Part shown: piece after piece, positions 11,073 to 14,903 of the stretch
Layout of the letters: each line of letters begins with the position of its first letter
How positions within the stretch are numbered: position 1 is the stretch's first letter
Assembly (NCBI GenBank): GCA_902576045.1
Contig: CACGTU010000003.1
Coordinates: 17,749-81,748, forward strand
Source: an uncultured Pelagibacteraceae bacterium
Lineage (GTDB): Bacteria; Pseudomonadota; Alphaproteobacteria; Pelagibacterales; Pelagibacteraceae
Direction: 5' to 3'
DNA length: 64,000 nucleotides
The notes under the pieces: generated by a model
What the model was told of the DNA's origin: nothing
The model's database searches: none
What the model saw: the letters and a program-made list of their open reading frames with translations, nothing else
Translations under genes and position numbers: made by a program

Positions 11073-11750
11073 TTATTTTGAAATCAAATTAATAACTTTT
11101 TTAATTCCCTTAATTTTCACACTTTTTTTAGATATCATTAAACAAGCTTGAGATTTTAAAATTTCACCATCTTTAAGAATTCTAAGATTATTAGCCCTTA
11201 AAGTTTCACCAGTTGAAGTTATGTCTGTTATGATTTCAGAAGATCCTGTAAATGGATAAATTTCTGTTGCACCAAGACTTTTAACTAACTTAAATTGAGT
11301 TACACCTCTTTGAAATAGAAATTCTCTGGTTAAGTTAGGATATTTAGTTGCAACTCTTAATCTACTTTTCTTTTTATCTTTGAACTCAAAAGCTATTTCT
11401 TCTAAATCAGCTAATGTCTGAACATCAATCCAATCATCAGGAACAGCTATTACTAATGTTGCATTGCCAAAATTATATTTTTTTTTAACTAAGATTTGTT
11501 TTTGAATATTAATTTCACTTTCTTTCAGTAAATCATAGCCTGAGAAACCAATATCTAGAGATCCATCTCCTAATCTTTCTACAATTTCTCTTGCATGCAG
11601 GTAAGTAACATTAATATTTTTAAATCCTTTAATATAACCAAATAAATCTCTCTCTCCTCGCTCAGATAAAAGTTTTAATTTTTTTTTTGAAAAAACTTTT
11701 AAAACATCTTTTCTTAATCTTCCCTTGCTTGGTATTCCAATATTAATCAT
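11073..11750 (-). CDS. hisG: ATP phosphoribosyltransferase, short (HisZ-dependent) form
   Basis: First step of histidine synthesis: condensation of ATP with PRPP. At 225 residues this is the short HisG lacking the regulatory domain, which works with HisZ; hisZ is directly upstream and overlaps it by 8 bases. Visible signatures are 'INIGIPSKGRLRKD' at the start, 'DGSLDIGFSGYD' and the PRPP-binding 'EIITDITSTGETLRAN'. It ends the tRNA-His–hisS–hisZ–hisG block. Confidence 0.94.
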   Translation of the reverse strand: MINIGIPSKGRLRKDVLKVFSKKKLKLLSERGERDLFGYIKGFKNINVTYLHAREIVERLGDGSLDIGFSGYDLLKESEINIQKQILVKKKYNFGNATLVIAVPDDWIDVQTLADLEEIAFEFKDKKKSRLRVATKYPNLTREFLFQRGVTQFKLVKSLGATEIYPFTGSSEIITDITSTGETLRANNLRILKDGEILKSQACLMISKKSVKIKGIKKVINLISK

Positions 11751-12795
11751 TTAAATTTATTGCAGCTCCTACCGCTGGTATTTTTTTGTTTGATCCAAGA
11801 TCTCCAATTAAATTATCGTACCTACCACCATTGATAATATTTATATTTTTATATTTTTTTTTAATTTCAATTTTAAATACAAGGCCAGTATAATATTCCA
11901 GTTGCCTTCCAAATGAAGCCGAATATCTAATATTTAATTTTGAAACTTTGTTTTTAGTTATTGGAAAATAGTTATTCTCAACTCGTAAATTAATTTTATT
12001 TTTTTTAAAAAAATAATTTAATTTATTTGCTGCTTGATCTATTGAACATTTTATTTTGAGAAAATCTTTAATGATTTTTGCAACATTTTTTCCTTTTTTG
12101 GCTCTTCTTGGATCTTTTATTTTATTATTAAACCTCTCTAAAATTTCATTAACAGATCTTCCTGCAATCATTTTCAATTGATCTTGTTTAAGCATTTGTT
12201 GATATCTTTTTTTATCAATCTCAACAATTGTCGGATCAACATCGGAATTTGTTTCAAGACGTTTTAATAATTCATTAAAATAATTTTCTCTCCAAAAATG
12301 TCTTTGAAGTCTCAATCTCCATCTCTTTGGTATATCTAATTTATTCAAAAGAAGTTTGAATATCTCTACATTGCCGATAGTGAGACTTCCTGAAGTATAG
12401 TTAAATTTTGATAATGATTTAATAGCAGTTTCTAAAATTTTTTTATCATCTTCTTTTTCTTTTTTGGAACCAATGATTTCAAATCCGATCTGATTTCTTA
12501 TTATAGGATCTGTTCTGTTCAAGGTTTTCCTAAATGCTTGACCATTGTAAAATACTTTTCTAGTCCCTTTTGCTTTATCGTTTAAATATTTTAAACAGGA
12601 TGCAATCGTTAAGTCAGGTCTTAAACAAAGTTCATTTCCATTTTGATCATTAAAAGAGAATATAAATCTTCTAAAACTTTCACCTGATCTCTCCACAATA
12701 TGATTAGTTTCAATAACAGAATCTAATTCAATATATTTGAATCCTTTTGATCTTACAGATTTAAGAATATTTTCAGATAAGTTTTTTGATTTCAT
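11743..12795 (-). CDS. hisZ: ATP phosphoribosyltransferase regulatory subunit
   Basis: HisZ is a catalytically inactive relative of histidyl-tRNA synthetase that gives short HisG its activity and histidine feedback. The class II fold is recognisable ('LCLRPDLTIASCLKYL', 'AFRKTLNRTDPIIRNQIGFE', 'ASFGRQLEYYTGLVF', 'NGGRYDNLIGDLG'). Length 350 is usual. It overlaps hisS upstream by 23 bases and hisG downstream by 8. A second true HisRS is unlikely because the real hisS is adjacent and this one lacks the C-terminal anticodon domain. Confidence 0.9.
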   Translation of the reverse strand: MKSKNLSENILKSVRSKGFKYIELDSVIETNHIVERSGESFRRFIFSFNDQNGNELCLRPDLTIASCLKYLNDKAKGTRKVFYNGQAFRKTLNRTDPIIRNQIGFEIIGSKKEKEDDKKILETAIKSLSKFNYTSGSLTIGNVEIFKLLLNKLDIPKRWRLRLQRHFWRENYFNELLKRLETNSDVDPTIVEIDKKRYQQMLKQDQLKMIAGRSVNEILERFNNKIKDPRRAKKGKNVAKIIKDFLKIKCSIDQAANKLNYFFKKNKINLRVENNYFPITKNKVSKLNIRYSASFGRQLEYYTGLVFKIEIKKKYKNINIINGGRYDNLIGDLGSNKKIPAVGAAINLND

Positions 12796-14161
12796 TTATA
12801 AGTTCATTTCTACTTATTAAAAGCTGATCGTTTTCTTTTGAAGAATTTAGTTTTTTTATTGTTAGCTTTTCATCTTTAAACTCGTTTTCACCACAAATAA
12901 TTGATAAATCTAATTTTTTTCTATCGGCATACTGAAGTTGTTTTTTAAGATTTTTGTTTTGATCTAAATATATTTCTGCAGGAATATTGTTATTTCTTAA
13001 TTCATTTACTATTTCATAATATTTTTGAATAAATTTTTTATCTAAAATACATACTAATACTGGTTTAGTTTTATTTACTTTAATTTTTCCTAATTGATTA
13101 ACAGCATATAAAAGTCTGTCTATGCCGATAGACATTCCGCTCCCTTTGTAATCAGCACCTTTAAATCTTGCAATTAAGTTGTCATAACGCCCACCACTTG
13201 CAACGCTACCAATATTTATTTCTTTACCTTTCGCATTTGTTACCTTGAAGTTTAGATTAGTCTCAACCAAGAACCCTGTATAATAGCTAAGACCCCTAAT
13301 TTTTGTAACATCAATACTAATTGAATCTTGATTGTTTCCAAAAGATAATACCTCAAATAACTCCTCTAATTCATTAATTCCTTCAATTGATAATTCATTT
13401 TTAAGATTAAATTTTAAATCTTTTATCTCTTTTAAATTAAGAAAATTTATTATTTCTAAAACTTGATTATCTGATAGATCACAACCTTTAGTGAAAGCAC
13501 CAGATTGATCTTCCCTTCCCTTTTTAAGCAATTCTTCTACACCTTTAATTCCTAACCTATCTAATTTATCTATCGATTTTAGAACTTTGTATTGTTTATT
13601 TTCTTCAATTTTAAGATCATTAATTAAACCCTGAAGAATTTTTTTATTTGAAACATTGATAGTGAACTGTTTATCAGTAAGCCCAATTTTTTTAAATGAC
13701 TCGCTAATAATATTGCATATTTCTGCATCAGCCTGTGATGGGTTTACATCTCCAATTATATCAGCATCTAACTGAGCAAATGAACGGAACCTTGCGCTAT
13801 CTGCCTTTTCTTGTCTAAATACATTTCCATAAGCAAACCTTTTATAAGGAAATACTAAATTTCTAAAATTCTCTGCACAAAAGCGAGCTAAAGGAGCACT
13901 TAAATCATACCTTAATGTTAAAGACTCTTTTTCATTCACAAATGAAAAAACATCACTCATTGGGTTGGTTTCGTCTTCTGCTAGAAATGAACCTATATTT
14001 TCGCTCTTTTCAAATTCTGGGGTCTCTAATTGCTCGAAACTATAATTAATAAATACGTCTTTTATAGTATCTACTAATTTATTCTTAAGATTTAGTTCAT
14101 CACCCCAACGATCTTTGAAACCTTTAGGTAAAGAGGCTTGAAGTTTTTTTTCTTTATTCAT
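12773..14161 (-). CDS. hisS: Histidyl-tRNA synthetase, alphaproteobacterial type
   Basis: It charges tRNA-His with histidine. The start is set at 14161 (MNKEKKLQ); the longer ORF in the track would translate through tRNA-His. Motif 2 region reads 'LRYDLSAPLARF' and 'YKRFAYGNVFRQEKADSARF', the form typical of the alphaproteobacterial HisRS group that charges a tRNA lacking G-1; 'GLSYYTGFLVETN' and 'ASGGRYDNLI' are also present. An anticodon-binding domain follows from about residue 375. Only four bases separate the encoded CCA of tRNA-His from the ATG, so no normal ribosome binding site fits between. Length is 462 residues. Confidence 0.94.
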   Translation of the reverse strand: MNKEKKLQASLPKGFKDRWGDELNLKNKLVDTIKDVFINYSFEQLETPEFEKSENIGSFLAEDETNPMSDVFSFVNEKESLTLRYDLSAPLARFCAENFRNLVFPYKRFAYGNVFRQEKADSARFRSFAQLDADIIGDVNPSQADAEICNIISESFKKIGLTDKQFTINVSNKKILQGLINDLKIEENKQYKVLKSIDKLDRLGIKGVEELLKKGREDQSGAFTKGCDLSDNQVLEIINFLNLKEIKDLKFNLKNELSIEGINELEELFEVLSFGNNQDSISIDVTKIRGLSYYTGFLVETNLNFKVTNAKGKEINIGSVASGGRYDNLIARFKGADYKGSGMSIGIDRLLYAVNQLGKIKVNKTKPVLVCILDKKFIQKYYEIVNELRNNNIPAEIYLDQNKNLKKQLQYADRKKLDLSIICGENEFKDEKLTIKKLNSSKENDQLLISRNELINEIKKLI

Positions 14162-14165
14162 TTTT

Positions 14166-14242
14166 TGGTACACGGGGACAGATTCGAACTGTCGACCTTC
14201 GGTTCCACAAACCGCTGCTCTAACCAACTGAGCTACCCGTGC
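14166..14242 (-). tRNA. tRNA-His (GTG)
   Basis: The cloverleaf is clear on the minus strand: acceptor GCACGGG paired with CCCGTGT, anticodon loop TTGTGGA giving anticodon GTG, T arm GACAG/CTGTC, and an encoded CCA. The base before G1 is A, not G, position 73 is A, and the first pair is G1:U72. This lack of the usual G-1:C73 identity pair is known for a group of alphaproteobacteria, whose HisRS is specialised to match. It lies just upstream of hisS. Confidence 0.95.
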
Positions 14243-14293
14243 TCCTTTTTATTGTTTTATACTAATTGTGGAAAAAATTAAATTTATAAATAA

Positions 14294-14386
14294 TTAAATA
14301 GCTAGCGTGCAGCCAGCATGGAAATGATGTCTGTGTGTACTTCTAGATGTTTCAGTTTTTTTAATCATCGGTGAGTGGTTTAGCAT
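14294..14386 (-). CDS. Possible histidine leader peptide (30 codons)
   Basis: This ORF is too short for the ORF track. From ATG 14386 it encodes 30 residues, or 24 from the in-frame ATG at 14368, and stops 51 bases before tRNA-His. Four of six consecutive residues near the middle are His ('STHRHHFHAGC'), with a fifth at position 4 of the longer form, in a genome where His is rare. The His codons sit next to a GC-richer segment able to form a hairpin (GCUGGC with GCUAGC). Position ahead of tRNA-His, hisS, hisZ and hisG suggests a charging-sensitive leader. No strong ribosome binding site is seen and no clean terminator follows, so the role is inference. Confidence 0.4.
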   Translation of the reverse strand: MLNHSPMIKKTETSRSTHRHHFHAGCTLAI

Positions 14387-14402
14387 TTTAAATCTAAAAT
14401 GC
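14383..14402 (-). repeat. Perfect hairpin over the leader ORF start
   Basis: GCATTTTA and TAAAATGC form an 8-bp perfect stem with a 4-base loop. On the minus strand the second arm contains the ATG at 14386, so pairing would hide that start codon and favour the ATG at 14368. It is not followed by a U run, so it does not look like a simple terminator. Confidence 0.55.
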
Positions 14403-14411
14403 AATACTGAA

Positions 14412-14457
14412 TTGTATAGGAATAAAAATGCTAATTTAGCAATCTATCCCTATACAA
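14412..14457 (-). repeat. Nested inverted repeat downstream of cspA
   Basis: Outer arms TTGTATAGG and CCTATACAA (9 bp, perfect) enclose an inner palindrome GCTAATTTAGC. It lies 22 bases past the cspA stop on the minus strand. It may be a 3'-end structure for cspA mRNA or part of the leader of the tRNA-His unit; no clear U tract follows it. Confidence 0.5.
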
Positions 14458-14479
14458 ATGTTTTAAATGAAATAAATTT

Positions 14480-14692
14480 TTAAGAAATTTTCTTTAAATT
14501 TACTGCGCTTGGACCTTTGTCTCCGTCCTGAATTTCGAATTCTATTGCATCATTTTCATTCAAAAAACGAAGTCCTGCTTCACGAACTGCGCTCGCATGA
14601 ACGAAACAATCCTTTTCACCGTCTTCTCTTTCTATAAAACCGTAGCCCTTCTTACCGTTGAACCACTTAACTTTACCTTTTAATGTACTCAT
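14480..14692 (-). CDS. cspA: Cold shock domain protein
   Basis: A 70-residue single-strand nucleic-acid-binding OB-fold protein. Both RNA-binding motifs are present: '[10 protein letters not shown]' (RNP1-like) and 'DCFVHASAV' (RNP2-like). It acts as an RNA chaperone in this family. It stands alone between two tRNA genes, with inverted repeats on both sides. Which paralogue of the Csp family it matches cannot be told from the sequence. Confidence 0.93.
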
Positions 14693-14729
14693 ACTTATAT
14701 TTTACTCTTTCTTATTAGTTTATTTACTC

Positions 14730-14744
14730 GCTAATTAAATTAGC
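14730..14744 (-). repeat. Palindrome in the cspA 5' leader
   Basis: GCTAAT and ATTAGC with a 3-base spacer, 37 bases before the cspA start. The flanking CTCG/CGCTGAG could lengthen the stem with a bulge. A similar GCTAA/TTAGC palindrome recurs downstream of cspA (14430–14440). A role in cold-shock leader folding is possible but unproven. Confidence 0.4.
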
Positions 14745-14821
14745 AGTCGCTGAGTATAAGAAATTGCCAGATATAGCAAGATTATATTTAGTCTGGATTT
14801 ATTTATTTTACCACCAAGATG

Positions 14822-14897
14822 TGGTGGCTTCGGCGGGACTCGAACCAGCGACACAAGCCTTTTCAGGGCTCTGCTCTACCACCTGAGCTACGAAGCC
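14822..14897 (-). tRNA. tRNA-Phe (GAA)
   Basis: Minus-strand cloverleaf with acceptor GGCTTCG/CGAAGCC, anticodon stem GAGCC/GGCTT, loop CTGAAAA (anticodon GAA), T loop TTCGAGT and an encoded CCA after discriminator A. It lies 6 bases after infA on the same strand and is probably cut from the hisD–infA transcript. Confidence 0.96.
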
Positions 14898-14903
14898 ATC
14901 ATT

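Follow-up and report, generated by a model that had tools for sequence, protein, structure and literature searches.

In the 64,000-nucleotide stretch of DNA from an uncultured Pelagibacteraceae bacterium analyzed here (the window), we identified a short leader ORF rich in histidine codons on the minus strand, upstream of tRNA-His, hisS, hisZ, and hisG. Comparison of the locus across SAR11 genomes points to ribosome-mediated histidine attenuation of these four genes by the leader, a reading to which we give a probability of about 0.75.

Leader ORF and operon

The leader and the genes that it precedes are as follows.

14294 to 14368, minus strand: leader ORF of 24 codons, MIKKTETSRSTHRHHFHAGCTLAI*, assigned from the fixed ATG phase and in-frame stop counts
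14318 to 14335, minus strand: His block, codons 12–17, CAC AGA CAT CAT TTC CAT (HRHHFH), kept across 127 distinct sequences
14166 to 14242, minus strand: tRNA-His (GTG), by ARAGORN; Rfam tRNA, 67.1 bits
12773 to 14161, minus strand: hisS, histidine–tRNA ligase; NCBIfam TIGR00442, 336.5 bits, above cut-off
11743 to 12795, minus strand: hisZ, ATP phosphoribosyltransferase regulatory subunit, overlapping hisS; NCBIfam NF008953
11073 to 11750, minus strand: hisG, ATP phosphoribosyltransferase, short form, overlapping hisZ; NCBIfam TIGR00070, 184.2 bits, above cut-off

The order on the minus strand is hisD – infA – tRNA-Phe – cold-shock gene – leader – tRNA-His – hisS – hisZ – hisG. The identity of hisZ was assigned by best match to NF008953 (E 6.9e-113), with a score of 377.5 bits that lies below the cut-off of 384. 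As only 4 nt separate the end of tRNA-His (14166) from the start of hisS (14161), there is no room for a separate hisS promoter outside the tRNA gene, which very probably places the two on a common transcript; with the overlaps between the following genes, it is very likely that tRNA-His, hisS, hisZ, and hisG are all transcribed as one unit. Processing of the tRNA 3′ end within the 4-nt gap (14161–14166) would leave the hisS message almost leaderless. The tRNA-His itself is extremely variable within the genus, and several copies upstream of hisS (loci L022, L031, L056, L058, L063, and others) have the T-loop AGCGTAA instead of TTCRANN; such copies were missed by ARAGORN, yet end in CCA beside hisS. 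Further upstream in the window, the leader promoter and the cold-shock gene are separated by a long inverted repeat (14457–14412, GTATAGGGATA...TATTCCTATAC), which relatives also have, with a loop that varies and without a U-tract; the cold-shock transcript probably ends there.

The initial annotation of this DNA had placed a 30-codon ORF at 14386–14294, with His at four of six consecutive positions plus one more. The ORF and its end at 14294 hold, but its length is 24 codons from ATG 14368; the four His within six codons (HRHHFH) are in the frame ending at 14294, while the extra His falls upstream of ATG 14368 and outside the leader. The earlier descriptions of the surroundings agree with our values: His makes up 1.6% of the long open stretches of the window, the ORF ends 51 bases before tRNA-His (14242–14166), and the GC content is 43% at 14300–14359 vs 15% at 14240–14299 and 22% at 14380–14439. 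Across its six frames, the window has eight stretches with at least four His per six codons vs 0.3 in shuffles, and all but the one in the leader are within or antisense to long ORFs. His density by itself is weak evidence, and the case for the leader rests on comparison across genomes.

Conservation and spread of the leader

In a leader-peptide search over 150 relatives, the leader was identified in 40, of which 39 belong to the same genus, and at each of the 30 loci fetched it was located immediately upstream of tRNA-His–hisS. DNA upstream of hisS was also taken from 40 further same-genus genomes, namely those missed or weakly scored by the first peptide search, giving an equivalent leader ORF before tRNA-His–hisS in 70/70 same-genus SAR11 genomes. 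Three forms were observed in the genus: the window type of 24 codons ending in HRHHFHAGCxLAI, a second form of 22 codons ending in THRNCFHSx*, and a third of 31–34 codons ending in VHxHFHAG*. One clade has merely two or three His left in its leader. In a second SAR11 family of the same order, all 18 genomes have an 11-codon leader (e.g., MFKFKHHHYHI*) directly upstream of hisS, which here has no tRNA-His in front. As is characteristic of ribosome-mediated amino-acid attenuators, a short ORF rich in His codons thus lies directly upstream of cognate genes at 88/88 loci in two SAR11 families. Relatives without the ORF or its His codons, which the initial annotation had named as evidence against a leader, were encountered neither among the 70 same-genus loci nor among the 18 of the second family. 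No His-rich ORF was found near hisS in 14 other Alphaproteobacteria, where a single three-His ORF, 818 nt off, was disregarded.

When the genome collection was scanned for stretches able to encode HRHHFHAG, at least 118 were obtained, and an in-phase ATG was present in 115 of the 118 matches listed. Among these listed matches, the three without such an ATG also had neither tRNA-His nor the promoter box described below, as expected of chance matches.

In four same-genus genomes (G016, G025, G035, and G073), HisS shares as little as 42–44% identity with that of the window, while the leaders upstream (L005, L011, L017, and L026) are still closely similar; this suggests that the hisS–tRNA-His cassette was swapped behind a resident leader.

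Predicted translation of the leader

In essentially all relatives with the window-type leader, the ATG is located exactly 33 nt upstream of the His block, and the residues at codons 2–11 vary freely. Despite this variation, not one of the 127 distinct window-type sequences has an in-frame stop within the nine codons after the ATG, whereas the other two frames have 62 and 125; for the other two leader types the corresponding values are 0/28 vs 26 and 26. The codons of the His block show synonymous changes, with codon 14 being CAT in 104 and CAC in 21 of the 127 sequences and codon 16 (Phe) being TTT in 100 and TTC in 18. An alignment across SAR11, proposed with the initial annotation as a check, gave the pattern anticipated there, the His codons being kept while other codons vary: in the 24-codon class, His accounts for 59% of codons 12–17 vs 2% of codons 2–11. 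The positions of the His residues move in some clades (HRHFHH, HRHYHH, HKRHHFH), with three or four His staying in nearly all window-type leaders, and length differences between leaders are whole codons. By the comparative criteria of stop avoidance (0/127) and synonymous change at His codons, the leader ORF is predicted to be translated.

Predicted promoters

Two elements bear on where transcription of the operon would start.

14377 to 14404, minus strand: predicted leader promoter, with −35 TTGCAT (14404–14399), a 16-nt spacer, and −10-like TAAACC (14382–14377), assigned from the TTG-box spacing
14256 to 14285, minus strand: conserved AAATTTAA (14285–14278) and −10-like TTAGTATAAAA (14264–14256), near-invariant in 30 sequences

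At 88/88 SAR11 loci the ATG has a TTG box 34–36 nt before it, with an AT-rich −10-like box 16–17 nt past the TTG box; for this count the script favored, among starts with a common stop, those having the TTG box. In an independent set, picked by the His-codon pattern alone, the TTG box was found at all 113 listed loci with sufficient upstream sequence. The −10 box of the leader in the window is weak. Based on the spacing, transcription is predicted to start at ATG 14368 or within a few bases of it, so that the leader message would be leaderless; at all loci the promoter is placed for a start at the AUG, as in leaderless leader ORFs of the Sinorhizobium meliloti trpL type. Such a start accounts for the lack of a clear ribosome-binding site, listed as a weak point in the initial annotation. 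The start codon and perfect start-codon hairpin originally proposed were discarded: ATG 14386 is not conserved, it falls within the spacer of the predicted promoter, and with a start at AUG 14368 both it and its hairpin would be outside the transcript.

The second element occurs in a related form (TAAGATAAAA/TAATATAAAA) before tRNA-His in other clades of the genus. It has no −35 box, and could possibly be a tRNA-His promoter consisting of a −10 only, or a processing site; the second family has no such element upstream of tRNA-His, which does not settle its role. The near-invariance of TTAGTATAAAA in the genus, at the distance from the tRNA that is usual for promoters here, could mean that a promoter of its own mainly drives tRNA-His and hisS, the leader just adding read-through or forming a separate short transcript. 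In favor of this reading, tRNA-Leu has TATAAAAC, with a proper −35 box. We consider the reading less likely than not, since TTAGTATAAAA has no −35 box, the element is absent before tRNA-His in the second family, and the constant place of the leader beside the operon in every genome would be left unexplained. If TTAGTATAAAA is a strong promoter, the attenuator would add to a basal supply of tRNA-His instead of controlling that supply. The original proposal that one leader governs the tRNA, its synthetase, and the first enzyme is therefore backed by the conserved leader and the very likely common transcript, but is qualified for tRNA-His by the possible second promoter at 14264–14256.

RNA structures

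Three pairings were considered in the leader transcript.

14301 to 14317, minus strand: P1, hairpin GCUGGC-UGCAC-GCUAGC, directly next to the last His codon, with UAUUUAAUUAUUU after it; at all 70 same-genus loci; −8.9 kcal/mol
14310 to 14333, minus strand: P0, CAGACA (14333–14328) with UGGCUG (14315–14310), which excludes P1; moderate support from pairing and covariation
14291 to 14367, minus strand: A:D, tentative, 5′ end including the start codon (14367–14360) with bases after P1 (14298–14291); from the minimum-free-energy fold

P1, the GCUGGC/GCUAGC hairpin already noted in the initial annotation, is found at 14317–14301 and is the sole terminator-like site in 14160–14760 (1 found, 0.2 expected). 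It is present at 70/70 same-genus loci with many compensatory changes, each of the stem positions 0, +1, +2, and +3 showing at least three pair types and the variants including GCUGGC/GCUAGC, AUAGCC/GGCUAU, ACGCAAGC/GCUUGCGU, GCUAGU/ACUAGC, and CGGUAGC/GCUAUCG. At 69 of the 70 loci, the stem start placed by the script lies within −3 to +1 nt of where a His codon ends; at the remaining one it picked a different stem, and P1 was found by inspection. In most relatives the tail is moderately U-rich (4–6 of its first 8 nt), and the leader stop codon is located either within the P1 loop, as in some leaders, or just past P1. That P1 is clearly an RNA-level feature, with some leaders stopping inside its loop, could be taken to mean that the locus is an RNA element whose open frame is a by-product of structure and is not translated. 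This is scarcely credible given the absence of in-frame stops in 127 sequences with freely varying codons, the fixed phase of the ATG, and the synonymous nature of the His changes. A pairing between CAUCAU and the upstream GAUGAU, also put forward initially, was rejected, as it is not maintained: the CAC found at codon 14 in 21/127 sequences breaks it.

P0 pairs the His-Arg-His codons with UGGCUG, and 99.3% of the cells in the alignment are paired. Its covariation consists of one double change from C-G to A-U, shared by four related sequences, and one U-A in L055, amounting to two independent compensatory changes; since most P0 pairs never vary, the support is moderate. This pairing explains the Arg codon and is relevant to a further reading, in which the locus would serve to make a small His/Cys peptide with a function of its own in trans, in metal binding or regulation. 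HRHHFHAGC is strongly conserved in the clade of the window, Arg and Phe included, and peTrpL of Sinorhizobium is a leaderless leader peptide with a role in trans (PMC7298713). With His positions that move, many leaders stopping before the Cys, an unconstrained N-terminal half, and quite different sequences in other clades, a trans-acting peptide nevertheless appears very improbable.

A:D appears in the minimum-free-energy fold of the leader in the window, and other clades show it in shifted register and with matched changes. In a pair count on the close 30-sequence alignment neither A:D nor P1 exceeded shuffles, and A:D is for this reason regarded as tentative, while the support for P1 stems from the wider locus set. 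RNAalifold on the same alignment returned P0 only, P1 being missed because four sequences have it unaligned; the test of P1 was then based on where the hairpin itself lies at each locus, outside this alignment.

In the second family (L095–L105 and L108–L114), a hairpin follows the leader MFKFKHHHYHI*, starting 6 nt past the last His codon, with a conserved A-C4/5-(U/A)n stretch behind it; these loci also have an AT-rich inverted repeat directly before the hisS start.

Proposed mechanism

In the attenuation that we propose, transcription would begin at the leader AUG, as predicted from promoter spacing, and a ribosome would start on the leaderless message. About ten filler codons, serving only to set the spacing, would precede the His codons, three or four in number, the final one lying directly against P1. 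With plentiful charged tRNA-His the ribosome would finish and leave, P1 would fold, and RNA polymerase would tend to stop in the U-rich stretch after P1, or be stopped by Rho. When charged tRNA-His is scarce, the ribosome would wait at the His codons with its leading edge over the left arm of P1, and with P1 blocked, transcription would continue into tRNA-His, hisS, hisZ, and hisG. The start codon may then be closed by pairing between the 5′ end and the bases beyond P1, although this step is tentative. Because the operon provides tRNA-His together with its synthetase and the enzyme for the first step of histidine biosynthesis, the loop would restore charged tRNA-His.

A ribosome stalled at the last His codon must, given the contact of this codon with P1, cover the left arm of the hairpin, and reasoning from footprint size favors P1 as a terminator to be blocked over P1 as an antiterminator. 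Two counterpoints apply. A terminating ribosome would also cover P1, so that the model needs its departure before polymerase escapes, and, by footprint estimate, stalling at the first His codon would leave the ribosome short of P1. The hairpin 6 nt past the last His codon in the second family may reflect a different division of labor.

The same His sensor could also operate without an intrinsic terminator, either with a stalled ribosome keeping Rho off or with P1 as an antiterminator or pause hairpin among the alternatives P0, P1, and A:D. Over the 20 kb scanned, canonical terminators are no more frequent than in shuffles (6 vs 6.7) and rho is present, which makes a Rho-dependent version viable; P0 cannot form together with P1 and has a double change, and in the second family the hairpin stands 6 nt past the last His codon, with C4–5 and then U/A behind it. 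Set against this are the terminator-like character of P1 itself and, for the antiterminator version, the awkward position of the last His codon, where throughout the genus a stalled ribosome would prevent P1. We hold this arrangement to be a serious but less probable alternative to an intrinsic terminator at P1.

Relation to known systems

The enterobacterial hisL is a short ORF with clustered His codons that precedes histidine genes and overlaps alternative RNA structures. The SAR11 leader resembles hisL (RF00514, His_leader) in these respects, but is predicted to be leaderless, has a terminator-like hairpin touching the His codons, and precedes tRNA-His/hisS/hisZ/hisG rather than a full his operon. 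An Rfam search of 13900–14900, up to E = 1, matched no family other than tRNA, with neither RF00514 nor a T-box among the matches. The SAR11 leader thus lies outside the Rfam His_leader model, yet very probably works like a His_leader. Like the T-box riboswitch of Firmicute hisS, it would subject hisS to control by tRNA-His charging; the T-box, however, binds the tRNA directly, where SAR11 has a translated leader. In E. coli pyrBI, the leader ORF runs through the terminator hairpin and UTP is sensed via polymerase pausing. The likeness here is that the position of the ribosome can act directly on a hairpin traversed by the ORF, the difference that pyrBI does not sense charged tRNA. Vitreschak and colleagues are said to have surveyed proteobacterial attenuators in 2004.

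His leader peptides have been predicted in Bacillus before hisZ and a hisS paralogue, and no similarity between leader-peptide sequences of Firmicutes and Proteobacteria was reported (Naville and Gautheret 2010, PMC2965389). The sensor and the downstream gene family are the same as in SAR11, but the Bacillus description includes no tRNA gene. Another attenuator from the Alphaproteobacteria, trpL of S. meliloti, is transcribed from the AUG of its leader ORF onward, and a trans-acting peptide and RNA were shown for it (PMC7298713); the start at the AUG is common to both systems, documented in S. meliloti and predicted from spacing in SAR11, whereas trpL differs by its Trp codons, its operon, a classical stop position, and its trans roles. 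His leaders before hisS/hisZ relatives and leaderless leaders are accordingly already known from Bacillus and Sinorhizobium, respectively, and the unusual part is a tRNA gene as the first member of the operon. A literature search that covered few subscription papers returned no paper combining SAR11, histidine, and leader-peptide attenuation. In a search for structured RNAs in Ca. Pelagibacter ubique, tRNA-containing intergenic regions had been removed from the candidate table, so the leader region would not have surfaced there (PMC2704228).

There is, in our estimation, about an even chance that the first gene regulated by this attenuator is the cognate tRNA, such that a shortage of charged tRNA-His would raise transcription of the tRNA, of its synthetase, and of the enzymes with which histidine synthesis begins, all under a single leaderless leader, forming a closed loop genus-wide in organisms with very few regulators. 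SAR11 are the most abundant bacteria of the ocean and have streamlined genomes with few regulators. A His attenuator in every sampled genome of two SAR11 families would indicate that amino-acid-specific control survives streamlining, and a leader ahead of a tRNA gene would unite tRNA supply, charging, and synthesis as one regulated unit.
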